This document shows, piece after piece, positions 12,833-49,358 of a DNA stretch of 64,000 nucleotides (position 1 is its first letter; every line of letters begins with the position of its first letter). The notes below the pieces were generated by a model. The model did no database searches, was not told where the DNA came from, and saw nothing but the letters and a program-made list of their open reading frames with translations. Position numbers and translations under genes: made by a program. The DNA comes from Thermodesulfobacteriota bacterium (GTDB taxonomy: Bacteria; Desulfobacterota; GWC2-55-46). The stretch is from the NCBI GenBank assembly GCA_030583865.1, contig CP129479.1, forward strand, positions 1,128,744 to 1,192,743. The letters are read 5' to 3'.

Positions 12833-12993
12833 TTAGCAGGTTGCTGAAATACTCAAAATTTCATGAAGGCTGCTCAAAAAGCTCAAGATGCAAGGAGTCG
12901 AAAAATGAGGAATGAGGCGTACTTTCACTGTACGCCGGAATGTCCAATTTTGAAGACGACGCAGCAGATTGGGCTTTTTCAGCAGCCTGTTAA
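12833..12993 (+). repeat. Dispersed palindromic repeat family B, copy 1
   Basis: A ~160-base element bounded by TTAGCAGGttGCTGAAA and the inverted TTTCAGCAGCCTGTTAA. A central hairpin has GGCGTAC (12916-12922) paired with GTACGCC (12930-12936). Other copies are at 33048, 34913, 43369 and 49217. It ends 21 bases before the pilD start codon, which lacks a visible Shine-Dalgarno sequence. Confidence 0.88.
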
Positions 12994-13795: not shown

Positions 13796-15316
13796 ATGAA
13801 AAAAGGCCTCGGAATCCGTTTCCAGCTGACCGCGGGCATGGTCATAATGACCGTAGCTGGAATAGGCCTCATAGGGCTCCTCAGCGTAAAGATAGTCGAG
13901 AGGAGCGCGCTCATGTGGAAGGCGAGCCAGGCCGGGGACATGGTGAGCTTTGTCCGCGCCGCGTTCAGGGTCCAGAAAGAGGGGGCGCTTGCCGCAAGCA
14001 TCACCGGCGCCGCGTTGAGGGAAGCGGGGGTTTCTGCCTTCAGGCTCACCGGGCCTAACGGCAGGACGATAATAGCCGAGGGCTCCATGCCCCACGGGCC
14101 CGGCGAGCGGTTCGCGCCCCTGGAAGGGTTCGAGGCCTTCAGGTACGGCGGAGGGTGGTTCGAGGGCGCCGGAGACAGCCTAAGGATATCGGCCCCGGTA
14201 AGCTGGCCGGGGCAGGGGAACGGAAGGCTCGAGTTCGTCCTGGGACTTTCCGATATAAACGAAGATATGGCAGGGGCCAGGAGGTTCCTCCTCGTCTACG
14301 CCCTCCTCGACTCGGCCGTCATAGTCATATTCGGCCTCTTCCTCCTTTCGCGCTCCGTCGTTGGGCCGATTAAACGCCTCGAGGAGGCGGCCACAAGGAT
14401 AGCCGGGGGCAGGCTCTACGAGCGGGCCAGGGTCGACGTGGAGAACGAAATAGGGAGCCTCGCCGCCTCCTTCAACAGCATGGCCGGGAGGCTTGAGGAG
14501 GAGATAAGGTCGCTTGAGCGCGTGAACCTGGAGCTTACCACAGCGCAGGACGAGGTCCTGAGGTCCTCTACCCTTGCCGCCGTCGGAAGGCTGGCCGCCG
14601 GCATAGCGCACGAGATAGGGAACCCGCTCGGCGCGCTCAGGGGCTACATGGACCTCCTCGGGAAAGGCGGCCTTGACCGTTCCGAGGAGGCCGAGATAGT
14701 CGAGCGCGCCTCCAGGGAGGTGTCGAGGATAGATTCAATCGTGAGGGAGTTCCTGGAGGTGGCCCGGCCCCATCGTCGGGAAGGGGTTGCTATCGCGCCA
14801 GTGGACGTGAACGCGCTCGTCGAGGAGACGCTTGCGTCACTTTCCATGAGGGACGACTTCAGGGGGGTAAGGGCGGAGATGGACTTGAGGGAGGGGCTTT
14901 CGCCGGTTATGGCCGACGAGGGGAAGCTCAGGCAGGTATTCATGAACCTCCTACTTAACGCGGCGCATTCGATGGAGGGGATGGCTGACAGGCCTGTGAG
15001 GATATCGACGGGGACCGAGAGCAGGCCCAAAAAGGCCGGAAGGCGGAGAAGCGACCAGCCTCTGGGGACCGATGCCGCTGCCGCGGAGTTCGTGACGGTC
15101 TCTTTCTCGGACAGCGGCTCCGGCATATCAGATGAGGACGCGAAGAGGGTATTCGACCCTTTCTTCACGACCAAGGGCGCGGGCAGGGGCACGGGCCTCG
15201 GGCTTTTCGTCTCGCAGTCGATAATAGACGCGCACGGCGGGGAGATAGCGTTCAGGTCGGCCCCCGGCGAGGGCTCGGTCTTTACCGTCGCCCTCCCGTC
15301 CGGGAGGAACCGATGA
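13796..15316 (+). CDS. Membrane sensor histidine kinase (HAMP, HisKA, HATPase)
   Basis: A 506-residue kinase. It has a first membrane helix (about residues 10-32), a ~125-residue periplasmic sensor region and a second helix (about 165-185). A HAMP domain and HisKA follow, with phospho-accepting His272 in AAGIAHEIGNPLGAL, then HATPase with FMNLLLNAAHS and TKGAGRGTGLGLFVSQSII. The stop overlaps the start of the response-regulator gene by ATGA, so the two form a pair. Its position between pilD and the minor pilins suggests a PilS-like role, but it has two membrane helices, not the six typical of Pseudomonas PilS, so the signal probably differs. Confidence 0.92.
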   Translation: MKKGLGIRFQLTAGMVIMTVAGIGLIGLLSVKIVERSALMWKASQAGDMVSFVRAAFRVQKEGALAASITGAALREAGVSAFRLTGPNGRTIIAEGSMPHGPGERFAPLEGFEAFRYGGGWFEGAGDSLRISAPVSWPGQGNGRLEFVLGLSDINEDMAGARRFLLVYALLDSAVIVIFGLFLLSRSVVGPIKRLEEAATRIAGGRLYERARVDVENEIGSLAASFNSMAGRLEEEIRSLERVNLELTTAQDEVLRSSTLAAVGRLAAGIAHEIGNPLGALRGYMDLLGKGGLDRSEEAEIVERASREVSRIDSIVREFLEVARPHRREGVAIAPVDVNALVEETLASLSMRDDFRGVRAEMDLREGLSPVMADEGKLRQVFMNLLLNAAHSMEGMADRPVRISTGTESRPKKAGRRRSDQPLGTDAAAAEFVTVSFSDSGSGISDEDAKRVFDPFFTTKGAGRGTGLGLFVSQSIIDAHGGEIAFRSAPGEGSVFTVALPSGRNR

Positions 15317-16656
15317 GGATACTCATAATCGACGACGAGGAGTCGATGCGCCACATGCTTTCCGTCATCCTCAAGAAAGAGGGCTATGATACGGTCTCGG
15401 CCCGTGACGCCCAAGCCGGGCTTGCGCTCCTTGAAAAGGACGACTTCGATTTCATTCTCTCGGACATACGGATGCCCGGCATGGACGGGACCGGGCTCTT
15501 GAAGGCCGTGGCCGGCAAGGGCGTCGCCTCTCCGGTCATAATGATGAGCGCCTACGGCTCGATGGACTCGGCGATGGAGTGCATGAAGCTCGGGGCCTAC
15601 GACTACATATCCAAGCCCTTCAAGGCCGACGAGATAGTTCTCGTATTGAGGAAGGCCGAGGAGAGGGAGAGGCTCCGCAGGGAGAACAGGAGGCTCAAGG
15701 AAGAGGCCGCGAGGGAGTATGACGTGTCCGGCATAAGGACCTCCGACCCCGTTATGGGCGGGGTGCTCGGCCTCGTACGCAAGATATCGGACTATTCGAC
15801 CTCGGTCCTTATTACTGGCGAGAGCGGCACCGGCAAGGAGCTTGTGGCCCGCGCGATACACTACGGCGGCAGCCGCTCGGGCGGGCCTTTCGTGGTCGTC
15901 AACTGCGGGGCCCTCCCGGGGCCGCTCCTTGAAAGCGAGCTCTTCGGCCATGTGAAGGGCGCGTTCACCGACGCCCACAGGAGCAAGGCCGGGCTTTTCC
16001 AGGAGGCCGAAGGCGGCACAATCTTCCTCGACGAGGTCGGCGAGCTGCCGATGGAGCTCCAGGTAAAGCTGCTGCGCGTTCTACAGGAAGGCGAGGTGAG
16101 GAGGGTAGGCGACAACAGGCCGGTGAAGGTAGACGCAAGGGTCGTCGCCGCCACTTTAAGGGACTTGAAGCAGGAGATATCGAGGGGCGCTTTCAGGGAA
16201 GACCTTTTCTACAGGCTGAACGTCATAGAGGTCAAATTGCCGCCACTCAGGGAGCGTCAGGGCGACATACCGCTCCTTGCCGAATGGTTCGTCGAGAAGT
16301 ATGCGCGGAAATTCATAAAGCCGCCCAAGGCGATTTCCGCCGGGGCAATGGCGGCGCTTAAGGCGTATTCCTGGCCCGGCAACATAAGGGAGCTCGAGAA
16401 CGTCATAGAGCGGGCCATGATACTCGAAGAGACCGGGACCATCAGGGAGTCGTCCCTCCCGTTGCTTGCCGGACCAGAGGCCCCAGGGAGCGCCGGAGCT
16501 TCCGGCCTCTCCATCAAGAAGGCCCAGGAAACGATGGAAAGGGAGCTTATAAGGAAGGCGCTCGACCAGACCGGGAATAACAAGACAAAGGCCGCCATGC
16601 TCCTCGAAATCAGCCACAGGGCCCTCCTTTACAAGATAAAAAGTTATGGACTATGA
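15313..16656 (+). CDS. Sigma-54-dependent response regulator (NtrC/PilR type)
   Basis: A 447-residue activator with a receiver domain (phospho-accepting Asp51 in SDIRMPG), an AAA+ domain (Walker A GESGTGKE; FLDEVGELP as Walker B) and a C-terminal Fis-type HTH (GNNKTKAAMLLEISHRALLYKI). The sigma-54 contact loop reads GAFTDA (residues 216-221) where most members have GAFTGA; this variant exists in a subset of NtrC-like proteins. It is co-translated with the upstream kinase. The dyad that overlaps its stop codon and the sigma-54 promoter 66 bases beyond make the minor-pilin operon its likely target. Confidence 0.94.
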   Translation: MRILIIDDEESMRHMLSVILKKEGYDTVSARDAQAGLALLEKDDFDFILSDIRMPGMDGTGLLKAVAGKGVASPVIMMSAYGSMDSAMECMKLGAYDYISKPFKADEIVLVLRKAEERERLRRENRRLKEEAAREYDVSGIRTSDPVMGGVLGLVRKISDYSTSVLITGESGTGKELVARAIHYGGSRSGGPFVVVNCGALPGPLLESELFGHVKGAFTDAHRSKAGLFQEAEGGTIFLDEVGELPMELQVKLLRVLQEGEVRRVGDNRPVKVDARVVAATLRDLKQEISRGAFREDLFYRLNVIEVKLPPLRERQGDIPLLAEWFVEKYARKFIKPPKAISAGAMAALKAYSWPGNIRELENVIERAMILEETGTIRESSLPLLAGPEAPGSAGASGLSIKKAQETMERELIRKALDQTGNNKTKAAMLLEISHRALLYKIKSYGL

Positions 16657-16716: not shown

Positions 16717-16721
16717 AGTTT

Positions 16722-16737
16722 TGGCATGCTGCTTGCT
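16722..16737 (+). promoter_or_regulatory. Sigma-54 promoter of the minor-pilin operon
   Basis: TGGCATGCTGCTTGCT matches TGGCAC-N5-TTGCW with one change. GG (16723-16724) and GC (16735-16736) are separated by exactly 10 bases. The predicted start of transcription is near 16748, just before fimT. Confidence 0.75.
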
Positions 16738-16768
16738 TTTCTGAATTGGCATGAACAGGCGTCCTTTC

Positions 16769-17251
16769 ATGTGCATTCAGCGGGAGAAAGGTTTCTCGCT
16801 CGTAGAGGTCCTGGTGGTCATTGCCCTCATCGGCATCATGCTGGGCATAGGCGGCCCTGCGGTCATCTCTCAGATGTCGCACATAAAATTCACCAGGGCC
16901 GTAAGGGACGTCGCCACCGAGCTCAACGCGGCGAGGCTCAAGGCAATAGCGGAGAGCAAGCCCATGCAGGTCGCTTTCTCCGGGGCGACTTACAGGCTCA
17001 AGGAATGCAACTCGCCGCCGTGCGCCGACGACGAATGGACCGATTACCCGACAAGGGGGGCTCGCGAACTCGGGACCGGGGCGACCATAACGGCGCCGGG
17101 CTCAACCTTCACCGTCGCTTTCTTCGCTAACGGCACCGCGACCGCGACGCTCATCTGCATGAGGAACGCGTCTGACGCGGGCGACCAGATGGGCATAAGC
17201 ATTACTGGCACGACAGGCCTTATCAAAGTGACTACGGGATGCACGACATGA
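16769..17251 (+). CDS. fimT: FimT/GspH-type minor pseudopilin
   Basis: A small prepilin with a class III leader (MCIQREKG) and the conserved processing site and helix GFSLVEVLVVIALIGIMLG; the Glu at position +5 is present. The remainder is a ~130-residue GspH/FimT-like globular domain with two nearby Cys (CNSPPC) and another pair near the C-terminus. ATG 16769 is preferred because the mapped-by-eye sigma-54 start site (~16748) leaves almost no leader before the alternative ATG at 16751, which would add six residues. It is the first gene of the operon and would prime pilus assembly with PilV, PilW and PilX. Confidence 0.88.
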   Translation: MCIQREKGFSLVEVLVVIALIGIMLGIGGPAVISQMSHIKFTRAVRDVATELNAARLKAIAESKPMQVAFSGATYRLKECNSPPCADDEWTDYPTRGARELGTGATITAPGSTFTVAFFANGTATATLICMRNASDAGDQMGISITGTTGLIKVTTGCTT

Positions 17252-17745
17252 AGACTTTTCCTCACGACAAGGGGTTTACGCTGGTCGAGGTGCTTATCGC
17301 GATGACGATACTCTCGATAGGCATACTGGGCATAGCCGGGCTTGCAGGCACGGCCGTAAGGGCCGCGAGCTTCAGCGAGTCCATGACGCAGGCGAACAAC
17401 CTGGCGCAGCAGAAGCTGGAGGAGCTGCTGTCGGTCGATTACAGGAACCTCCATGTAACGGACACGGCGGCCACAATGGCTCCTTTAAGGAGGAACTGCA
17501 CCCTCACGACCTCCTCGTCCAGCAGGCCGGTCTACACCTGCACTCCGGTAGACCCGATTATCCAGCTTGAGGGCAAGCGCTTCAACTGGTCGTATACGGT
17601 AGCCTTCATCGACCTCGACGGCAGCGGCGAGGCGAACCAGAACCGTGACGGGCTCAAGAGGCTGGACATCACGGTCACGTGGACGGACAGCCTGTGGAGG
17701 AGCACGAAAAGCCTGACGCTTACAACCATGAGGACGAGGGGATGA
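17248..17745 (+). CDS. pilV: PilV-type minor pilin
   Basis: A 165-residue prepilin with leader MKTFPHDKG and GFTLVEVLIAMTILSIGILGIAGL, then a helix (SMTQANNLAQQKLEELLSVDY) typical of type IV pilus modification protein PilV. The start at 17248 overlaps the fimT stop by ATGA; an upstream in-frame ATG (17239) would add three residues. It probably joins the initiation complex at the pilus tip with FimT, PilW and PilX. Confidence 0.9.
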   Translation: MKTFPHDKGFTLVEVLIAMTILSIGILGIAGLAGTAVRAASFSESMTQANNLAQQKLEELLSVDYRNLHVTDTAATMAPLRRNCTLTTSSSSRPVYTCTPVDPIIQLEGKRFNWSYTVAFIDLDGSGEANQNRDGLKRLDITVTWTDSLWRSTKSLTLTTMRTRG

Positions 17746-17795: not shown

Positions 17796-20700
17796 ATGAA
17801 CGGCAGAGGGGGATACTCGCTGATCGAGGTCCTGATAGCGATATTCATAACCGGCGTGGTGGCCGTGTCTATATACTCCCTCTACAACACGTTCTTCATC
17901 CAGTCGCATACCCAGGACCTGAAGGTGGAGGCGCAGCAGAACGCCAGGGTGGCCCTGAACCTCATGGAAAGGGAGTTCATGAACGCGGGGTACGCGGCCT
18001 GCGACGGCAACGTGATCCAGGAGGCGACGTCGACATCGATACAGTTCGTCTACACCGACCCTGAGGAGGACGGGAGCCTGAGCGCCACGGCAGGTCAGTG
18101 CCTGAGGGTCATGTACGCGCTCCAGACTCTTGACGGAGTTCAGGTGTTGGTAAGAAGGGCCGATACCGGCTCAGGTAGCGGCTGGACGACCGGCACGACC
18201 GAACTCGTGGCCGAGCACGTGGACAATATCGTTTTCACCTACTATGACATCGACGGCAATCCCGCGAACACCTCAACGCAGGCCGAGAGGAACGCCATAA
18301 GGTTCGTCTCGGTGAACCTCGTGACCAAGACCAAGTCGGCTGTCCAGGGCATCGGCGCCCCTGCAACCTTCATGTCCGAGACGAATATAAGGCTCAGGAA
18401 CCTGGGGGTCGGGGCCTCGGCTTACGATACTACCGCGCCAGTGCAGACGACCGGACTCCAGGTAAGGGACCCCGGCATATGCGGCAGGCTCAATGTCAAG
18501 TGGACGAAGAACACTGAAGGCGACATCAGGGGCTATAAGGTCTACTACGGCGTCGCGTCCGGCTCGTACGAGGGCGTCGTTAATATCCCCGTGACCGTCC
18601 TTTCAGGGAACGAGCACAGTTGCACGGACACCGGAAGCGAGATCGAGTGCACTATAAGCCCCTCCAACCCTCCTCTGGCAAACAGCCCCGCTGACGGGAG
18701 CTCGACCACGACATATTACCTGACGGTCAAGGCCTACGACAACGCCCTTAACCACAGCGACCCTGCTGCGGAGGTCTACGGCAACCCTGACCCGAGCAGC
18801 TCCGAGTTCGATTCGGGCGCCGACGACTCGACCCTCAACTCCATAAGTCCCGTCCCGGTCACCGGCTTTTCCGGCGCCGACGGCCCCTCTGACGGACAGG
18901 TGCTCCTGAGCTGGACCCCGTATGACAGCTCGACCAACCCCGACGTCACCGGCTTCAGGATATACAGGTCCACGTCGCCGTTCACGAGCTATCCCATAGA
19001 CCATACGGCTTCGGGCATAGACTGGATAGCCGGCGAGCCGGGTAGCGGCAAGCCCGAAGTAGGCAAAAACGCCACGAGCTATACCGACTCAGGGGGCCTT
19101 ATCGGCTGCCGCATCTATTACTACGCCATAGCGCCTGTAGCCTGCGATACCACACTCCTTACCGACGCCGGAGGGGAGCTCAAGTACGCAAACGACGACT
19201 ATGACGCGACCTGCGGAGACGGAGAAGAGCCCTGCTCGCCCGGGACGGGCTTTGCGGCCTCCTCAGGCTCGGACACGGCACCGGCAAAGACGACCCCTCC
19301 CGGCGCGCCTACGATCGACGCCAGGGCCGGGTGGAAAAGGGTCGCGCTATCGCTTACGCAGCCCTCTGACGCGGACATAAAGCAGACATGCGTATACACC
19401 GAGGAGAGCGCAACCTACCCGTTCCTTTCCGACATCGTGAACGCGAGCGGGTGCTACGAGGTGACCCATCCCGGCCAGCTCATACCCGACTCCGGCGGCA
19501 TATTCACATCGGCTGAGCTTCCGCCCGCGCAGTCCACCTCTTTCTGGCATGATTCCATGGACGTGGAGAGCCCGGCGGAGCCGTCCCTTGCCGAGACGGG
19601 CACTTATTCGTACAGGGCGGTCTCCTTCGACAACTGCGGGAACGGCTCGGACATAACCGGCGCCCAGGCAACGACCATACTCTGCGGCGAGGACCCTCCC
19701 TCTGGCGAGAAGCCCCCGGCGGTCACGGACCCGACTGTCGGGTGCTGCGCCGGGCCGGTAACGCTTTCCTGGACCCCGGTGCCGAGCGACACCTCATCGC
19801 CGTCAAGCGTATCAAACCCTTACGACCTCGCGGGCTATAGGGTAATCAGGGCCGAGGACGCGGCTTTCACCATCGGCGCGCAAATCGTCTCGGGAAGCGC
19901 TCCGTTCTGGGGCTCGACATTCAGCGACAGCAGCGTCGAGGAGGGGAAGACCTATTACTACAGGATAGCCTCCACCGACTGCCCCTATGAGAGGGGAAAC
20001 CCGTCGGACGCGACGATAATAAGCCATGCGAATTCGGGCTACCTCAATTCCGTCACAGTCGGCCCCGTGAGGCCCGGAAAGCTCGACAGGGACGAGAAGA
20101 CCACAGACGTGCAGGACGACCACAGGGAGGTCCTGACCGGCGTGACAATCGCCGGCGACGGGTCAAGCGCGCCCACTGCAGGTTTTACGCACGACTCGGT
20201 CACCATGTTCCTCAATAACACGAGCACCGGCCCGATTACCGTTACAGGCGTGAGCGTTTCCTGGGTGAACCCGGCTGCATATCTCAGGGAGGTGACCATA
20301 GGCGGAGGCGACAGCTCCGTTGGCGCCACTACCACGAGCCTTGCCGCCGGGCTTACCGGCGCGTCCGGGACGTCCCCGTACACCAGGGCGGTGACCAGTG
20401 CCTCGCTCTCCAACGTCACGATTCCTGGCCTTGAAAACCACGTGCCCATTACATTCACATTCAAAGACTCGGGCGGGAACGCCATTGACATGAGGGACGA
20501 CCAGTTCCTCATAACCCTTGCGGCAACCAACGACTCTACAGGCTCGTCCTGCTCCTCTTACCTGACTGTTTCCGAGCTGCAGGAGGGAGTTTTCGTTCCG
20601 CTCGGCCCGAGCGTGACCGCTACACAGCAGAATAGCCCCATAAACCCCACCTTCGGCTATGCGGTGCCCGGCTCCACGGGGCTCAATACCGTCCCGTCCG

Positions 20701-22052
20701 GCTCGGACGCGGGAATAGTCGCGGATTCGGGCGTCCAGGTGGCCATATCCGCGAATATCGCAGGAAACACCACCGACGCGGTCACCGGAAACAAGGTGCC
20801 GGTCTCATCGGCGACGATCTATTACAGGGCGACGGCGAAAACGGTCACCACGGCTCCCGCCGGAGGCTATACCGCGGTTTCGATGTCGAACGTCGGCGGC
20901 GATATATGGTCCGGCAACATCCCCAACTTCGACGGCCAGCGCATCTGGTATTATGTCGTAGGCGCTGACGCTGACGGCAACTGGGACCGCGACCCAGAGA
21001 TAGCGCACGGCGCGTATGTCTACGACCAGGGCGAGTTCGAACTATGCGCCGTTACGCCGAGCGCGCCCACAGGGCTTGCCGCCACCGCGGTCGGGTCAAG
21101 CGTCACACTGACATGGAACCCTGTAACCACTTACTCGAGCGGCGCGGCGGTGGATACGGAAGAAGATGCGATACTCTACCGGATATTCAGGGACGGCGCC
21201 CAGGAAGGCTCCGACCAGGCCGGCACGAGCTACACCGACACTGTCCCCTTGAACGGCGTATACAGGTACACCGTAAGGGCGCTCAATTCCTGCGCTGACC
21301 CGGGGCCGAACGTAAGCTCTGACTCGAATACGGCCGCGACATGCGTCGGCATGAGCGGGCAGGCGACCATAAGCGTGAGCCCCACCACGATATACAGGGG
21401 CGAGAGCTTCACGGTCACTGTAGTGGACTGCCTGGCCCTCAGCACGGGCTATGAGACGACCCTGCAGACCTTGAACGTTGACAGCGGCTTCTCGACGTTC
21501 TATGTCAGGAGCGGCGTGCCTCATACTTACACCCCGCCTGTCATTGAAACGGGTGTTGCGACCGGCACGTTCGTAAAGACGATAGAGACCTCGGCCTCTT
21601 CGGAGGCCGGGAAGCTACAGACCCTTGCGTCGGATACGATCACGGCATTCTACACCTACGCCTCGCCGCAGACAGCGACCGTGAGCGTGATTGTCGACCC
21701 GTGCGCGAATACGCCCAGGGCGCCGGCTTCCCTCTCGGGCTCGAAGAGCGGCCAGAACATGACGCTAAACTGGAGCGCGGTATCGTTCAATACCGACGAC
21801 ACCTCCATAACCGACCTCGCCGGCTACAGGGTCTACGAGAAGGTCTGCAATGACGGGGCCCCGAACTGCACAGGCTCCAGCATACAGAAGGACTGGTTCC
21901 TGAGGACGTCAGTCGGCCCGGGCACTACATCGGTTACCCTTAGCGCCGACCAGGGCAACCTTAACCAGAGGATGTACCATTTCAGGGTGACTGCCTTCGA
22001 TTCGTGCTCCACCCCGAACGAGAGCAGCCCGTCGAGCGTGTGGTATGAATAA
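17796..22052 (+). CDS. Giant modular PilW-type minor pilin with a beta-sandwich/FnIII array
   Basis: A 1,418-residue protein. Residues 1-6 (MNGRGG) are a prepilin leader and YSLIEVLIAIFITGVVAVSIYSLYNTF is the pilin helix. The PilW-like part runs to about residue 215 (AQQNARVALNLMEREFMNAGY). After it come repeated beta-sandwich modules with FnIII hallmarks (VTLSW, AGYRVIRA, YTVRAL). Rough positions are 218-325, 356-455, 501-618, 640-735, 1087-1179 and 1305-1418. Two longer beta-rich segments lie at about 749-935 and 946-1078, and another at 1187-1302. Cysteines often come in pairs per module, suggesting periplasmic or extracellular disulfides. Ordinary PilW is about 300-350 residues. ATG 17796 follows AGGGG; the ORF opens at 17679 and another ATG at 17742 overlaps the pilV stop. 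Confidence 0.88.
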   Translation: MNGRGGYSLIEVLIAIFITGVVAVSIYSLYNTFFIQSHTQDLKVEAQQNARVALNLMEREFMNAGYAACDGNVIQEATSTSIQFVYTDPEEDGSLSATAGQCLRVMYALQTLDGVQVLVRRADTGSGSGWTTGTTELVAEHVDNIVFTYYDIDGNPANTSTQAERNAIRFVSVNLVTKTKSAVQGIGAPATFMSETNIRLRNLGVGASAYDTTAPVQTTGLQVRDPGICGRLNVKWTKNTEGDIRGYKVYYGVASGSYEGVVNIPVTVLSGNEHSCTDTGSEIECTISPSNPPLANSPADGSSTTTYYLTVKAYDNALNHSDPAAEVYGNPDPSSSEFDSGADDSTLNSISPVPVTGFSGADGPSDGQVLLSWTPYDSSTNPDVTGFRIYRSTSPFTSYPIDHTASGIDWIAGEPGSGKPEVGKNATSYTDSGGLIGCRIYYYAIAPVACDTTLLTDAGGELKYANDDYDATCGDGEEPCSPGTGFAASSGSDTAPAKTTPPGAPTIDARAGWKRVALSLTQPSDADIKQTCVYTEESATYPFLSDIVNASGCYEVTHPGQLIPDSGGIFTSAELPPAQSTSFWHDSMDVESPAEPSLAETGTYSYRAVSFDNCGNGSDITGAQATTILCGEDPPSGEKPPAVTDPTVGCCAGPVTLSWTPVPSDTSSPSSVSNPYDLAGYRVIRAEDAAFTIGAQIVSGSAPFWGSTFSDSSVEEGKTYYYRIASTDCPYERGNPSDATIISHANSGYLNSVTVGPVRPGKLDRDEKTTDVQDDHREVLTGVTIAGDGSSAPTAGFTHDSVTMFLNNTSTGPITVTGVSVSWVNPAAYLREVTIGGGDSSVGATTTSLAAGLTGASGTSPYTRAVTSASLSNVTIPGLENHVPITFTFKDSGGNAIDMRDDQFLITLAATNDSTGSSCSSYLTVSELQEGVFVPLGPSVTATQQNSPINPTFGYAVPGSTGLNTVPSGSDAGIVADSGVQVAISANIAGNTTDAVTGNKVPVSSATIYYRATAKTVTTAPAGGYTAVSMSNVGGDIWSGNIPNFDGQRIWYYVVGADADGNWDRDPEIAHGAYVYDQGEFELCAVTPSAPTGLAATAVGSSVTLTWNPVTTYSSGAAVDTEEDAILYRIFRDGAQEGSDQAGTSYTDTVPLNGVYRYTVRALNSCADPGPNVSSDSNTAATCVGMSGQATISVSPTTIYRGESFTVTVVDCLALSTGYETTLQTLNVDSGFSTFYVRSGVPHTYTPPVIETGVATGTFVKTIETSASSEAGKLQTLASDTITAFYTYASPQTATVSVIVDPCANTPRAPASLSGSKSGQNMTLNWSAVSFNTDDTSITDLAGYRVYEKVCNDGAPNCTGSSIQKDWFLRTSVGPGTTSVTLSADQGNLNQRMYHFRVTAFDSCSTPNESSPSSVWYE

Positions 22053-23325
22053 CATGATAAAACAGGCCGGAAGAGACGAACGGGGCTTTATCCTGGTGCT
22101 TGCGCTCGTGACCATGCTGGCCATGACCATAATCGGCCTCTCGGTCATCATGAACATGACGACGGACATGCAGCTTTCCCGTAACGAGCGGGACGCCAAG
22201 ATGGCGTTCCAGCTCGCCGAGGCCGGGGTGCACGAGGCAATGTCGAGGTTCCGGCTGGCGTCAGGGAACGCGAGATACACAGGGGAGAGCGCCGCTGATG
22301 CGGGCTACAGGGACCTGGCCACATGGAACTCCGACGGGTCGAAAGACTTCAGCTCCGGGAACGGCAACGCCGACAGGAGGAGCGCGGACAGCCTTAACTA
22401 CAACGTAACTGTCGAATACCTCGGCGAGGGCAACCCCGAGGGCTTCTGCGACGGCAATGGCGTGGGCCCTAACACCTCAGGCAACCATTCCGACCCTAAT
22501 TCGACCACCTGGACCTGTGATAACAGCCCCGAGGAGATAGTCATGTACGGCAGGGACTTTAACCTTGTCGACACAGCCACATTCGTGACCTGGGGCAAGC
22601 ATCCGGTCTACAAGGTAACTTCCATCGGTACCTCGAATAACATATCGAGGACCGTGGTGGCCTATGTGGGCGCGAGCAACCTCAATACCGATACAGAATT
22701 CGGCATAAACACCAACGGTTGCGTAAACGTGTCCGGAGGCGCCGCCGACATCGGAGCAGTAAAGCAGGGGCCGGGCTGCGGCTGCGACCCCAAGATAACC
22801 GACGGAGGCGGCTCCTGCGAGCCCAACAAAACCACCGAAGACGACATGAATACCTATCTCGGCGAGGACATATCCGAGATAATCGAGTTCGCCAACGAAA
22901 GGCACAGCTGCAAGAACGGCACCTGCAGCGCTCCGGGCGACGACATACCTTCGAGCGGCAAGATAGAGGGTGTTGTCCAGGACTGGGGAGACTACGCCGG
23001 GAATACCTATTCCACGATGATATACATAGACAACAAGGGAGGAAAAGAGGTGAGCCTTTCCGGCAACTTTACGGGAAGGGGCATACTCATCGTGACCGGC
23101 GACCTCACCTTGAGCGGCACGCTCGCCTACGAGGGGCTTATATACGTCTTCGGCACTGTGACTCTCTCCGGCGGCGGAAGCTCCATGAACGTCTTCGGCG
23201 GCCTCATGGCCGACAGCACCGTCTCGGTCAATGGAAATATCGACGTCGTATACGACCAGGACACGCTTAACGACGTCGCGAGGGAGAACTCAAAACCCGC
23301 CATAATACTCTGGAAGAGGCTGTAA
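22045..23325 (+). CDS. PilX-type minor pilin with Cys-rich insert and beta-rich C-terminus
   Basis: A 426-residue protein starting with leader plus GFILVLALVTMLAMTIIGLSVIMN and the PilX signature NERDAKMAFQLAEAGVHEAM. The centre (about residues 225-300) carries many Cys (CGCDPK, CEPNK, HSCKNGTC). The C-terminal ~110 residues have short beta-strand repeats (EVSLSGNFTGRGILIVTGDL, TLSGTLAYEGLIYVFGTVTL), resembling a small beta-helix. ATG 22045 overlaps the preceding stop; ATG 22054 is an alternative. PilX proteins usually sit beside PilY1, but no PilY1 gene follows. Confidence 0.85.
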   Translation: MNNMIKQAGRDERGFILVLALVTMLAMTIIGLSVIMNMTTDMQLSRNERDAKMAFQLAEAGVHEAMSRFRLASGNARYTGESAADAGYRDLATWNSDGSKDFSSGNGNADRRSADSLNYNVTVEYLGEGNPEGFCDGNGVGPNTSGNHSDPNSTTWTCDNSPEEIVMYGRDFNLVDTATFVTWGKHPVYKVTSIGTSNNISRTVVAYVGASNLNTDTEFGINTNGCVNVSGGAADIGAVKQGPGCGCDPKITDGGGSCEPNKTTEDDMNTYLGEDISEIIEFANERHSCKNGTCSAPGDDIPSSGKIEGVVQDWGDYAGNTYSTMIYIDNKGGKEVSLSGNFTGRGILIVTGDLTLSGTLAYEGLIYVFGTVTLSGGGSSMNVFGGLMADSTVSVNGNIDVVYDQDTLNDVARENSKPAIILWKRL

Positions 23326-23418: not shown

Positions 23419-23589
23419 CACCGGCCCATCTCGGCTCTGCTCCCCTCAACACGACCAGGCACCCCGCGCGAAAAAAAAGTAAAAGGGCGGCACCTATTGG
23501 CGTCCCCGGGCCGGAATAAAAAAAGTCCTAAACTTATCCGGGTGTGCGCCGATATTATAGTTAATTATGTGCCAATTAGAAGAAATATG

Positions 23590-23619
23590 TTGACAATTAT
23601 GGCTCATTGGAGATAGATT
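23590..23619 (+). promoter_or_regulatory. Possible promoter of the XRE-pilMNOPQ operon
   Basis: A perfect TTGACA (23590-23595) followed after 18 bases by TAGATT (23614-23619). It lies about 95 bases before the XRE gene; the -10 box is weak. Confidence 0.4.
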
Positions 23620-23712
23620 GCAGCCAATCCAGCTCAGATTCGTAATTCCCGGTCAGCTAAAGCGGCTCTCCATCGAGACCATCCATACCCTTGTGACTAA
23701 AGTGCTTGTGCC

Positions 23713-23910
23713 ATGACGAGAAATAATCTAAAGAAGATACGTGAGGGCATGCTCCTCAGCAAATCCGAACTTGCCAGGAAGGCGGGGGTCTCCCCGCTTA
23801 CAATAGACAGGATAGAGAGAGGATACCCTTGCAGGCTCGAGACGAAACGGAAGCTCATATGCGCGCTGGGCCTCAAGGTCTCCGACAAGGGCAAGATATT
23901 CCTGGACTGA
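23713..23910 (+). CDS. Small XRE-family helix-turn-helix regulator
   Basis: A 65-residue single-domain DNA-binding protein. The HTH spans nearly the whole length: LKKIREGMLLSKSELARKAG, then SPLTIDRIERG as the recognition helix. There is no effector domain. It starts at ATG 23713 and ends 10 bases before pilM, so it is probably the first gene of the pilMNOPQ transcript and a candidate local repressor or activator of it. It has none of the toxin-antitoxin context often seen with XRE proteins. Confidence 0.85.
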   Translation: MTRNNLKKIREGMLLSKSELARKAGVSPLTIDRIERGYPCRLETKRKLICALGLKVSDKGKIFLD

Positions 23911-23920
23911 CGGGGGTAAA

Positions 23921-24988
23921 ATGAACTTTTCCTTCAGCAAGAAAAAGGACGCCGTGGCATTCGACATCGGCTCCAATTCAATAAAACTTGTGCAGATGAA
24001 CCGCACCAAGAAGGGCTGGGAGCTCGTGAAGATGGGCATGGCCAAGCTTCCTCCAGAGGCCATTGTCGACGGCTCCATCATCGATTCCATGACCGTCACC
24101 AACACGCTCCGCGAGCTCGCGAAGGAGCACGGCGTGAAGGTGAAGGACGCGGTCTCGTCGCTCACCGGCCATTCCGTCATCATAAAGAAGGTCAGCTTCC
24201 CGGCAATGACCGAGGACGAGCTGGCGGACTCCATCCAGTGGGAGGCCGAGCAGTACATCCCGTTCCCCATAAGCGACGTCAACATCGACTTCCAGATACT
24301 CGGGACCGACGCCGAGGGCAGGGGGCAGATGGACGTCATGCTCGTGGCGGTAAAGCGCGACGTCATAAACGACTACACCAATGTCATAAAGGAGGCCGGC
24401 CTGAACCCGGTCGTGATAGACGTGGACTCCTTCGCCCTCGAGAACATGATGGAGGTGAACTACCCGCTCGCTCCCGGCGAGAACATCGCCATGGTCAACA
24501 TAGGGGCGAGCATCACGAGCATAAGCGTGATACTCGGCGGCATCACCATATTCACCAGGTCCATCCCCATGGGCGGCAACCAGTTCACCGAAGAGATACA
24601 GAGGCAGCTTAACATAAGCTTCAAGGACGCCGAGGACCTGAAGACCGGGGCCAGGGAGCCGTCCGAGCAGGAGGCAACTGAGCTCGCGGCGGCGCTGGAA
24701 TCGGTCTCCACCAACCTCGCGTTCGAGGTCAAGAGGTCGCTCGATTTCTTCCTCGGCGGGGCGCACGGCTCCTATATCAGCAAGATATTCCTTTCCGGCG
24801 GAGGCTCCAGGGTCGCGGGCCTGCAGAACCTGATGCAGGAGAAGACCTCGGTCCCCGTAGAGCCGGTCGACCCGTTCAAGGGCATCGAGGCCAACCCGAA
24901 GCATTTCGGCCCCGAGGCGCTCAAGGAGGCCGCGCCGCTCTTCGGCGTGGCTGTCGGACTCGCCACACGGAGGTTCGCCGACAGATGA
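23921..24988 (+). CDS. pilM: Type IV pilus assembly ATPase-like protein PilM
   Basis: A 355-residue actin-like (ASKHA/FtsA fold) cytoplasmic protein that recruits PilN at the inner membrane. Typical blocks are VAFDIGSNSIKLVQM, ISFKDAEDLKTG and IFLSGGGSRVAGLQ. GGGGGTAAA before the ATG at 23921 provides a Shine-Dalgarno sequence. The stop overlaps pilN by ATGA. PilM, PilN, PilO and PilP form the alignment complex that links the pilus motor to the PilQ secretin. Confidence 0.97.
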   Translation: MNFSFSKKKDAVAFDIGSNSIKLVQMNRTKKGWELVKMGMAKLPPEAIVDGSIIDSMTVTNTLRELAKEHGVKVKDAVSSLTGHSVIIKKVSFPAMTEDELADSIQWEAEQYIPFPISDVNIDFQILGTDAEGRGQMDVMLVAVKRDVINDYTNVIKEAGLNPVVIDVDSFALENMMEVNYPLAPGENIAMVNIGASITSISVILGGITIFTRSIPMGGNQFTEEIQRQLNISFKDAEDLKTGAREPSEQEATELAAALESVSTNLAFEVKRSLDFFLGGAHGSYISKIFLSGGGSRVAGLQNLMQEKTSVPVEPVDPFKGIEANPKHFGPEALKEAAPLFGVAVGLATRRFADR

Positions 24989-26898: not shown

Positions 26899-29766
26899 AT
26901 GAGTTTGAGAGATGTTCGGTTGAGGCGGGCCCTCATGGGTATCATGCTCGGAGGCGCCCTGACCGCGGCAGGCTGCGCTTCGACCGGCCCCAAGGATATC
27001 CAGGCAGAGCCGGTTTCCGAAGCTGCCGCGCCGGCGGCCTCTGCCGTATCGGTCGAATACATCGACGTGGTCGGAGAGGGGGACAGGGTGCTTATCGGGA
27101 CGACGGGCCCGGTCAAGTACACAGTCTTCAAGCTGTCTTCCCCGTCGAGGCTGATAGTCGACATGCCGGGGACAGGCCTTGAGAAGGTCGCCAAGACGCT
27201 TGCCGTCGGGAACGACTACGTCGGCGAGATAACAACGGCGGCATATGGCGATAACAAGGACATCGGCAGGATAGTGATAGGCCTCAAGGACGGCGTTGGC
27301 CACGACGTCAAGTCCAGCGAGAACAGCATACTCGTAAGCCTCAGCAAGCCAGGCGGCGAGGCAGTGGAGGCCGGCGCCATCAGGCTCGCCTCTGCGGACG
27401 CCGTCGTGGAAGAGGCCCTTCCTGACGCAGCGGAGCCGGCTGAAGGGCAAGCCGCCCAGGACGCGCCTGCCGCAATCGCAAGCGAGGCCCCGAGTGCGGA
27501 GCCTCAGGCGAATGCCGCCCCGGCCAAGAAGGCCACGAAGGTGACCGGCCTTGAGACAGCCGCGGAGGGCGAGAATACAGTCATAAGGGTATTGACCGAC
27601 GGCATGGCCGGCAACCACAACGCTTTCGTGCTCGCCAAGCCCGCGAGGATAGTCCTCGACGTATGGGGCGTGCGGAACTCCACGGGCAAGGACGCAAGGA
27701 GCCTGAATGACAAATACGTCAAGGCCGTAAGGATAGGGAGCTACCCTGACAAGGCCCGCTTTGTTTTCGATGCGAAGGCAGACAAGCTGCCTCCGCATTC
27801 CGTAAGGGTTGAAGACGGCGCAATCGTCCTTACAATGGGCCCCGGCGCACTGCAGGCCGCTGCCCCCGCGCCGGCCACGGTAAAGGCGGCGCTCCAGGCA
27901 GAACCGGAAACCGCGAAGCCGGTGGAAGCAGCGGCATCGAGCCCGGCGCTTCCGGCGGTCCCGGCAATCTCGACGCAAGACGAGCCTTCATCCGAAAAGA
28001 CCATATCCCTGAAGGATGAGGCTAAGGGAACCAGTATAGACAGGATAGACTACGCGAGGGTCGGAGACAAGGGAAGGCTCACCATAGCGGGTTCCTCGAA
28101 ACTCGAGTACAAGACGAGAGAAGGCAGGGACGGGAAGACGGTAGCCCTGGATATCAAGGGGGCCGTCATCCCCGATGCGCTTGTGAGGACGCTCGACGCA
28201 TCCAGGCTTAAAACGCCGGTCGCTTCAATAAGCTCCTATCAGGACTCGGTAAGCCCGAGCTCGGTCAGGGTGCTCGTAAAGCTCAGGGACAAGGCCGCGT
28301 ACAATGTCCAGGAGGCCGGGAATTCCCTGGTAGTCGACTTCTCGGAAACGGCAGCCGCAGCGGACAAGGCGGCCCAGGCCGAGCCCGCCGCACCGGTCTC
28401 CTCCGAAACAAGCGCGATTTCCCAGGAGCTCGATAAAGAAAAGCGCTACAACGGCAAGAAGGTAAACCTCGACATGATGGACGCCAATATAGCCGACGTC
28501 CTGAGGCTCCTTGCCGAGGTCAGCGGCATGAACATCATAGCCTCCGACGACGTAAAAGGGACCATCTCGCTCAGGCTCAAGAACGTCCCCTGGGACCAGG
28601 CCTTTGACATCATCATGAAATCAAAGGGCCTGGACAGCGTCCAGGAGGGGAACGTCATAAGGGTCGCGCCCGCGCAGAGGATAAGGCAGGAGAACGAGGC
28701 ACTGCTCGCCGCGAAGAAAGCCGGCGAGAAGCTCGAGGACATGGAGATCGAGTTCGTGGCCGTCAACTTCGCCAGCGCCGACGAGCTCAAGGACCAGGTG
28801 AAGAGCGTCCTTACGGACAGGGGCGAGGTCACGACAGACAAGCGCACCAACACCCTGGTGATAAGGGACATAAGGAAGGGCATAGAGGCAGCCAAGAACG
28901 TAGTAACCAGGCTCGACACTCCCATCCCGCAGGTGCTCATAGAGGCCCGCATCGTCGAGGCGTCCTCGAGCTTCGCCAGGGACCTCGGCATCCAGTGGGG
29001 CGTCGATTATTCGGCGGGGAACAGAAACCAGTTCAACACGCTCGGCAGCTCCACGAGCTTCGGGTCGGCAGCCCTAAGCCCTGACCGCAACATCACGGCG
29101 ATAGTCGAGGAGGGCGGGGCGTACCCTATCGAGAAAAAGGAATGGCCGGCCAGGCCCGGCGTGAGCAACTATGCAGTGAACATCCCGGCTACAGGCGCTG
29201 CCGGGCCGCTCGGCGCATTCGGCTTCATGTTCGGTAAAATCGGCGCTAACCCGCTCATCCTCGACCTGAGGCTCACCGCTGGCGAATCGCAGGGGCAGCT
29301 GAAGACCATATCGAGGCCGAGGGTCACGACCCTGGACAACAGAGAAGCCAAGATAGAGCAGGGCGAGTCCATACCCTTCGAGACCACGTCCGCCGCGGGC
29401 ACGGCTACGACCTTTATAGACGCGAACCTGAGCCTCACGGTCACCCCGCATATAACCCCGGACGGCAGCGTCCTTATGAAGATAAAGGCCTCGAGGAACT
29501 CCCTGGGCACGTTCAGGACGTCCGGCGGGCAGCCTTCCATCAATAAAAAGGAGGCCACCACCGACGTCCTCGTAAAGGACGGCGAGACGACCGTCATCGG
29601 CGGCATAGTCATAACCGACAAGAACAACAGCGAGCGCGGCATACCGTTCCTCAAGGACATACCGGTCCTGGGCTGGCTCTTCAAGGCGAAGTCGGTTGCC
29701 GACACCCAGACGGAGCTCCTGATCTTCATAACGCCGAAGATATTGAAGGAGAAGACCGTAGGCTAA
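26899..29766 (+). CDS. pilQ: Outer-membrane secretin PilQ, lipoprotein with three AMIN-like domains
   Basis: A 955-residue secretin through which the pilus leaves the cell. A signal peptide with lipobox TAAGC (Cys26) suggests a lipid-anchored secretin. Three AMIN-like beta domains can be seen, at about residues 48-155, 213-312 and 375-490, separated by Ala/Pro/Glu-rich linkers. An STN/N0 domain (MMDANIADVLRLLAEVSGMN), N1 (NolW-type) and the secretin core (ILDLRLTAGESQGQLKTISRP; TTVIGGIVITDKNNSERG) follow. Canonical PilQ has one or two AMIN domains. GGAGG precedes ATG 26899. A strong terminator follows. Confidence 0.96.
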   Translation: MSLRDVRLRRALMGIMLGGALTAAGCASTGPKDIQAEPVSEAAAPAASAVSVEYIDVVGEGDRVLIGTTGPVKYTVFKLSSPSRLIVDMPGTGLEKVAKTLAVGNDYVGEITTAAYGDNKDIGRIVIGLKDGVGHDVKSSENSILVSLSKPGGEAVEAGAIRLASADAVVEEALPDAAEPAEGQAAQDAPAAIASEAPSAEPQANAAPAKKATKVTGLETAAEGENTVIRVLTDGMAGNHNAFVLAKPARIVLDVWGVRNSTGKDARSLNDKYVKAVRIGSYPDKARFVFDAKADKLPPHSVRVEDGAIVLTMGPGALQAAAPAPATVKAALQAEPETAKPVEAAASSPALPAVPAISTQDEPSSEKTISLKDEAKGTSIDRIDYARVGDKGRLTIAGSSKLEYKTREGRDGKTVALDIKGAVIPDALVRTLDASRLKTPVASISSYQDSVSPSSVRVLVKLRDKAAYNVQEAGNSLVVDFSETAAAADKAAQAEPAAPVSSETSAISQELDKEKRYNGKKVNLDMMDANIADVLRLLAEVSGMNIIASDDVKGTISLRLKNVPWDQAFDIIMKSKGLDSVQEGNVIRVAPAQRIRQENEALLAAKKAGEKLEDMEIEFVAVNFASADELKDQVKSVLTDRGEVTTDKRTNTLVIRDIRKGIEAAKNVVTRLDTPIPQVLIEARIVEASSSFARDLGIQWGVDYSAGNRNQFNTLGSSTSFGSAALSPDRNITAIVEEGGAYPIEKKEWPARPGVSNYAVNIPATGAAGPLGAFGFMFGKIGANPLILDLRLTAGESQGQLKTISRPRVTTLDNREAKIEQGESIPFETTSAAGTATTFIDANLSLTVTPHITPDGSVLMKIKASRNSLGTFRTSGGQPSINKKEATTDVLVKDGETTVIGGIVITDKNNSERGIPFLKDIPVLGWLFKAKSVADTQTELLIFITPKILKEKTVG

Positions 29767-33047: not shown

Positions 33048-33208
33048 TTAGCAGTTTGCTGAAACACTCAAAATCACGTTCAGTCTGCTCAAAAAGCTCA
33101 AGATGCAAGGAGTCGAAAAATGAGGAATGAGGCGTACTTTCATTGTACGCCGGAGTTGCCAATTTTGAAGACGACGCCTTGAAGCGGGCTTTTTCAGCGG
33201 CCTGTTAG
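33048..33208 (+). repeat. Dispersed palindromic repeat family B, copy 2
   Basis: Same orientation as copy 1 and nearly identical to it over the segment GCTCAAGATGCAAGGAGTCG and the central GGCGTAC/GTACGCC hairpin. Ends TTAGCAG ... CCTGTTAG. It lies between aroB and the small TPR gene, 26 bases before that gene's ATG. Confidence 0.88.
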
Positions 33209-34915: not shown

Positions 34916-35061
34916 GGGCTGCTGAAAAAGCCGTGAATGCGTCGTCTTCAAAATTGGACTTCCGGCGTACAAGGGAAGTTCGCCTCGTTTCTCGACTCAT
35001 TGCATCTTGAGCTTTTTGAGCAGCCTTTATGTGGGTCTTGATTTTTTCGGCAACCAGCTAA
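34913..35061 (-). repeat. Dispersed palindromic repeat family B, copy 3
   Basis: Reverse orientation relative to copy 1. Begins TAAgGGCTGCTGAAAAAGCC, overlapping the upstream stop codon, and ends TTCGGCAACCAGCTAA. The central hairpin is degenerate (GGCGTACaagggaagttCGCC). Confidence 0.82.
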
Positions 35062-43368: not shown

Positions 43369-43534
43369 TTAGCAGGCTGCTGAAAAAGTCCATTTGCTTC
43401 GAAGGCTACGTCGCTGGCTACGAAGGCGTACACGAAAAGTACGCCTCATTCCTCGCTCCCCTATTCCAACGGGGCCTAGCATCTGGAGCTTTTTGAGCAG
43501 CCTGAATAAAAACTGAGTTTTCCAGTAAGCTGTT
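43369..43534 (-). repeat. Dispersed palindromic repeat family B, copy 4, diverged
   Basis: Begins TTAGCAGGCTGCTGAAAAAG and includes GCATCTGGAGCTTTTTGAGCAGCC near the end, in reverse orientation to copy 1. The middle is diverged, with an apparent internal duplication (GAAGGCTACG / GAAGGCGTAC). It joins directly to a half copy of family A. Confidence 0.75.
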
Positions 43535-49220: not shown

Positions 49221-49358
49221 CAGGCTGCTGAAAAGGCCCGAACTGCTGCGTCGTCTTCAGATTGGACACTCCGGCGTACAATAAAAGTACGCCCCGTTTT
49301 TCGACTCCTTGCGTCTCGAAGTTTTTTGAGCAGCCTGAATGCTTCAGCGACCTGATAA
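49217..49358 (-). repeat. Dispersed palindromic repeat family B, copy 5
   Basis: Begins GTAGCAGGCTGCTGAAAA, providing the infB stop, and ends TTCAGCGACCTGATAA. The central hairpin is GGCGTACaataaaaGTACGCC, compensating the loop changes seen in other copies. Reverse orientation relative to copy 1. Confidence 0.87.

Follow-up and report, generated by a model that had tools for sequence, protein, structure and literature searches.

In type IVa pili, PilY1 is commonly regarded as the tip protein. The M. xanthus pilus is primed by PilY1 together with the minor pilins FimU, PilV, PilW and PilX, and the complex was placed at its tip (PMC7541494); P. aeruginosa also has such a PilY1/PilC and FimU-PilV-PilW-PilX cluster. 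Modular type IV pilins, such as PilB and PilC of S. sanguinis, bear grafted domains at the C-terminal side of a pilin module. PilB is 50 kDa in size, with one vWA module. In the 2021 survey of such proteins, fibronectin type III (FnIII, IPR003961) ranked in the top 15 of grafted domains by frequency, and the longest modular pilin named had 860 residues (PMC8179133). CofB of the type IVb pili of enterotoxigenic Escherichia coli and ComZ of T. thermophilus are described in the same work as large minor pilins with extra β domains and proposed action at the tip. Here, we analyzed a 64,000-nucleotide stretch (the window) of contig CP129479.1 from a Thermodesulfobacteriota bacterium. The gene at 17796–22052 encodes a giant PilW of 1418 residues and is part of a self-contained FimT-PilV-PilW-PilX cassette beside pilM; it lies on the + strand, as do the kinase, regulator, promoter element, minor pilin, pilM and pilQ features given below.

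Like the S. sanguinis proteins, the giant PilW has an N-terminal pilin module followed by grafts; like the PilY1 clusters, its cassette contains minor pilins of the same types and has a proposed tip role. However, compared to the surveyed modular pilins, the giant PilW proteins are much larger (∼1400–1900 residues, with ∼9 modules), the carrier is PilW, and the cassette swaps with PilY1. Compared to the PilY1 clusters, the giant cassette has no PilY1 gene or PF05567 propeller, the exposed bulk would be on PilW, and PilX is 426 instead of 152 amino acids (aa) in length. CofB and ComZ, compared by description only, have other domain types, are much shorter and belong to other pilus classes. Modular pilins and FnIII grafts are already known (PMC8179133); novel features are the size, the use of a PilW as carrier in a cassette of type IVa minor pilins, and the swapping with PilY1 at a single locus. 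No open-licence paper searched combines PilW, 'fibronectin type III' and 'minor pilin', a negative of little weight since most subscription papers lay outside the search.

Pilin domain and module array of the giant PilW

The giant PilW gene is a single uninterrupted open reading frame (ORF) of 1418 codons in the window translation; its assignment draws on the ORF, Pfam, orthologs and AlphaFold2. It starts with a class III signal, in which cleavage occurs between MNGRGG and YSLIEVLIAIF, with Gly before the site and Glu5 present. The initial annotation had recognized this leader, and the Pfam N_methyl match (25.7 bits; cut-off 21.2) confirms it. For structural analysis, two overlapping AlphaFold2 models were built from window and relatives' sequences; the mean predicted local distance difference test (pLDDT) scores are 79 for the N half and 75 for the C half. 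Residues are numbered from the Gly preceding the cleavage site, and module boundaries were placed by eye from strands, confidence and alignment.

Leader and pilin domain together occupy 17796–18422, as indicated by N_methyl, AlphaFold2 and fold matches. In the N-half model, helix α1 is 58 residues in length (residues 4–61), and the pilin β-sheet extends to residue ∼194. The top fold matches are T. thermophilus TTHA1219 and the GspJ pseudopilins XcpW and EpsJ (Z 12–13), which can be superimposed with root-mean-square deviations (rmsd) of 2.9–3.4 over ∼140–148 residues; although alike in fold, these chains are 159–198 residues in size and lack a C-terminal array. A PilW-like part of ∼215 residues had been proposed; the pilin domain is indeed predicted, but its boundary is nearer 204. 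By its leader, predicted pilin fold and gene order, the protein is a type IV minor pilin PilW, whose incorporation into a pilus is predicted. It is far above the usual 300–350 aa (relatives' canonical copies have ∼300 aa), a length that is usual for PilW but not defining.

According to the models, the giant PilW is a modular pilin, in which the pilin module is followed by ∼9 β modules, four in the N half and five in the C half. D1 (approximately residues 205–325; 18423–18785) is FnIII-like, with many FnIII matches at Z ∼10 and rmsd 2.2–2.6. D2 (330–444; 18798–19142) is FnIII-like with lower confidence, as judged from model and fold matches. It is followed by a predicted disordered linker (∼445–497; 19143–19301), where pLDDT is mostly 26–35 and the low-confidence stretch covers residues ∼449–494. 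The FnIII-like D3 (498–612; 19302–19646), which also has fold matches, and D4 (613–745; 19647–20045) both show low identity to their counterparts in the related genome G001. D5 (793–916; 20187–20558) is a β-rich module. D6 (932–1078; 20604–21044) is immunoglobulin (Ig)/FnIII-like and matches the Ig-like domain of peptidylarginine deiminase (Z 11.4, rmsd 2.6); D7 (1079–1181; 21045–21353) is FnIII-like by model and fold matches. D8 (1182–1296; 21354–21698) is β-rich and has the weakest confidence. D9 (1297–1413; 21699–22049) is modeled as an FnIII domain and matches the FnIII domain of chitinase A1 (1k85; Z 11.8, rmsd 1.6, 31% identity). Most modules carry conserved cysteines.

The models thus contain at least six β-sandwich-type folds after the pilin domain, and the disorder after residue ∼215 that would have spoken against a modular chain is not seen: pLDDT below 50 is confined to the linker, residues ∼735–792 and short loops. 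Profile searches gave a mixed picture. Neither Pfam nor NCBIfam detected any grafted domain above cut-off in the giant PilW, and Pfam fn3, to which D9 gives a sub-threshold match, scored 22.3 bits against a cut-off of 25; fn3 was nevertheless matched in 5 of 18 orthologs with E values no higher than 0.001 (lowest 3.5e-7). The FnIII assignment is therefore based on predicted structure and the orthologs' matches, and most modules are predicted to be FnIII-like. A viral fold library returned only generic FnIII-bearing tail proteins, which we read as a common fold. Taken together, models and gene order bear out the initial proposal that a FimT-PilV-PilW-PilX operon encodes a very long, modular PilW whose array is rich in FnIII-like domains.

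Distribution and exchange with PilY1 cassettes

The window genome is one contig of 2.75 Mb. Its lineage is uncultured, and the close relatives that have names, among them GWA2_55_10 and UBA5799, are 'Deltaproteobacteria' assembled from metagenomes. We surveyed 63 genomes of the class, many of them incomplete, and found the giant gene, full-length or fragmentary, in 25; the products reach ∼1900 aa in length and range in identity between 79% and ∼31%. G024 was included on the basis of a C-terminal fragment beside pilM, whereas G055, which has the pilin part only, was left out. An alignment-based search of contigs gave 15 loci; a single-protein search of the same kind of data gave no relatives. 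Outside the class, a 1386–1407-aa version is present in three genera of one other family of the phylum, and the single such locus read whole has kinase, regulator, FimT, PilV, PilW and PilX in the same order. The remaining phylum genomes match the pilin part alone, in ORFs of 204–298 aa. Conservation of the fusion in related genomes, which had been raised as a check, therefore holds, and the fusion is a lineage trait. The search of a plasmid collection for the giant gene gave no match, so spread by plasmids is not supported.

Compared with G004, the ratio of nonsynonymous to synonymous substitution rates (dN/dS) is 0.16 for the giant gene and 0.06–0.13 for genes outside the cassette; the tested outside genes are 83–95% identical. 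Conserved residues span the full length of the ortholog alignment. Judged from these sequence comparisons, the giant PilW is under purifying selection. FimT (16751–17251) is the fastest-evolving gene of the cassette, with 50% aa identity to G004 and dN/dS of 0.36.

In other genomes, the site of the giant cassette is occupied by a PilV-PilW(300 aa)-PilX-PilY1 cassette. This is best seen in G005, which belongs to the same genus and whose PilM and regulator are 97% and 96% identical to those of the window. DNA homology to G005 (89–91%) ends at window position 16775 and restarts at 23516, within a zone (23516–23920) where homology to PilY1-cassette relatives resumes; between these borders, G005 has PilV, PilW (300 aa), PilX (152 aa), PilY1 (1070 aa), a Big9 protein and a pilin. 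Both cassette types share the chromosomal site and the promoter. The promoter is a sigma-54-like element at the left border of the cassette (16721–16736, TTGGCATGCTGCTTGC); it has the form TTGGCAT-N5-TTGC, begins 64 nucleotides past the regulator stop, and recurs within 62–65 nucleotides of that stop in most relatives, whichever cassette follows. By gene coordinates, the gene cluster directly upstream of pilM contains the giant gene in 19 genomes, PilY1 in 14 and both together in none. On the PilM tree, the site switched type at least six times, or eight times with contig-broken and moved cases included; since PilM adjoins the cassette, it does not serve as an independent marker of species. 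The chromosomal site thus holds either the giant cassette or the PilY1 cassette, and the two were never seen there together.

PF05567, the C-terminal β-propeller of PilY1, has no match in the giant PilW, and no hidden PilY1 gene was found in or near the giant cassette; the sole PF05567 match of the window genome sits away from it. Among all 63 genomes, 18 have the giant gene only, 25 PilY1 only, 7 both and 13 neither. Nearly complete genomes with the giant cassette alone include G002, G009, G014 and G016, among others. All seven double carriers have PilY1 at another locus. An unfused state in the same gene order is represented by G055 (L082 4453–7398), where FimT, PilV, a 270-aa PilW, PilX and pilM follow each other and PilY1 was not found in the genome; this locus may be a pre-fusion or reduced state.

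The second cassette of the window genome (G000) lies at ∼1889–1896 kb, adjoining its own sigma-54 activator. An 8.2-kb block containing it (L040 5160–13570; G000:C1 ∼1889.2–1897.6 kb) is common to G001 (95%) and G004 (84%). The flanks compared for this block do not match those of its G001 and G004 counterparts and have only short matches across those genomes, so the three blocks seem to be at different places. The PilY1-type cassette with its own activator is possibly a portable unit. A gene for a ∼350-aa protein that weakly matches Big_9 (bacterial Ig) also occurs in PilY1 cassettes, followed by another prepilin gene; examples of the former are at L042 13270–14298 and L040 5617–6690.

The giant gene itself varies internally. 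DNA flanks in G001 are ∼93–96% identical to the window. Within the protein, identity is 85–95% over residues 1–480, 30–42% over ∼520–800 and 78–90% over ∼1040–1200, and the chain is variable again beyond. This pattern looks as if a divergent allele had replaced the central modules; locally fast evolution is a possible alternative. The reading frame of the G001 gene is broken near residue 1200, possibly through an error of assembly.

Proposed role at the pilus tip and alternative explanations

We propose that the product of the giant gene is probably the carrier subunit of an alternative type IVa pilus tip that does not depend on PilY1. With slightly less confidence, we favor the wider reading that the lineage has two interchangeable tips at one sigma-54-controlled site, one with PilY1 and the other with a PilY1-free PilW stalk of ∼1400–1900 residues, whose central modules recombine. 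FimT, PilV, PilW and PilX would assemble as a priming/tip complex, capped by PilX, which like GspK lacks Glu5; the Leu at mature position 5 of the 426-aa PilX agrees with the missing Glu5 of PilX/GspK (PMC7541494). PilW would occupy a GspJ-like position with the C-terminal array pointing outward, so that the chain would form a slender stalk of very roughly 30 nm that protrudes from the tip and crosses PilQ lengthwise. The modules may stand in for the variable N-terminal part of PilY1 and bind surfaces, cells or polymers; S. sanguinis PilB, as an analog (PMC8179133), and the PilY1 exchange suggest such adhesion. The exposed specificity would vary as entire cassettes and internal modules are exchanged, and bacteria with both cassettes may change tips through separate sigma-54 regulators. 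The putative tip-adhesin role of the giant PilW is strengthened by the same-site exchange and the GspJ/PilW-like carrier fold. If the proposal is true, a diderm type IVa pilus can be primed and tipped without PilY1. The window genome and G005 form a natural pair, in which the whole tip cassette differs while the flanks are ∼90% identical; what the tip decides is therefore a directly testable question.

Several observations weigh against this proposal. No obvious binding domain, such as vWA or a lectin, was recognized among the modules. In M. xanthus, a bulky superfolder green fluorescent protein on PilW3 blocked function (PMC7541494). The Fisher test for avoidance between the giant gene and PilY1 (p 0.005) ignores kinship; in kinship-independent pairs the two traits never moved the same way, but the pairs are few and the result is not significant (median p 0.125). 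Seven genomes, among them the window genome, retain a PilY1 cassette at another locus; in these bacteria, the giant cassette may therefore not suffice alone.

FnIII domains often serve as spacers. The modules could accordingly have a spacing or mechanical function, for instance by plugging PilQ to halt retraction, with variation due to relaxed constraint or to escape from phages that use the pilus tip. The absence of a recognized binding domain fits this explanation, but purifying selection and conserved residues across the full chain do not, and the cassette replaces PilY1, whose relatives function in adhesion (PMC7541494, PMC8179133); we consider it unlikely, though the most serious of the rivals. 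The seven long T2SSE-type ATPase genes and several further pilin clusters of the genome, together with the GspJ-like pilin domain, would be compatible with a minor pilin from a different filament, of either a type II secretion system or a competence pilus, adjoining pilMNOPQ incidentally. Given that this adjacency is kept in 19 genomes, that the cassette swaps with a PilY1 cassette and that its partners PilV and PilX are of type IVa pilus type, this explanation is improbable. Still less probable is cooperation with a PilY1 encoded elsewhere, the giant PilW being a second adhesin rather than a replacement: seven genomes carry both, but PilY1 was not found in 18 genomes with the giant gene, some nearly complete, and in double carriers each cassette has its own pilin set. 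A frameshift, which the initial annotation had named as a risk, or an assembly error joining PilW to a separate FnIII protein has nothing in its favor except the rarity of pilins this long. Full-length orthologs show the identical fusion in many independent assemblies, which rules the artefact out for practical purposes.

Neighboring genes and other features

Upstream of the cassette, argJ is followed by a histidine kinase (13796–15316; HAMP, HisKA and HATPase_c by Pfam) and an NtrC-type sigma-54 response regulator (15313–16656; Pfam), which forms the left flank and is conserved in relatives. Pfam and NCBIfam support the order FimT-PilV-PilW-PilX. The FimT/GspH-like minor pilin is 166 aa in length, with N_methyl and GspH above cut-off, and PilV (17239–17745) is 168 aa (NCBIfam TIGR02523 pilV, 55.3 bits against 52.2). 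The PilX-type minor pilin (22045–23325) was identified by PilX_N (41 bits) and its sequence. Among relatives, PilX is ∼410–560 aa in giant cassettes and ∼150 aa in PilY1 cassettes. A small XRE-like helix-turn-helix ORF (23714–23911) lies between the cassette and pilM, in DNA that is kept where the relatives' cassettes differ. The pilMNOPQ genes start with pilM (23921–24988; Pfam, NCBIfam); the pilQ secretin gene is at 26899–29766 (Pfam).

A ∼155-bp dispersed repeat is present at 12836–12990, with palindromic-looking ends (AGCAGGTTGCTGAAA ... TTTCAGCAGCCTG). It is absent at this position in G005, G004 and G002, and partial copies occur at 33051–33177, 34938–35027, 43436–43503 and 49221–49336; from its sequence, it looks like a small element of the repetitive extragenic palindromic or miniature inverted-repeat transposable element (REP/MITE) type.

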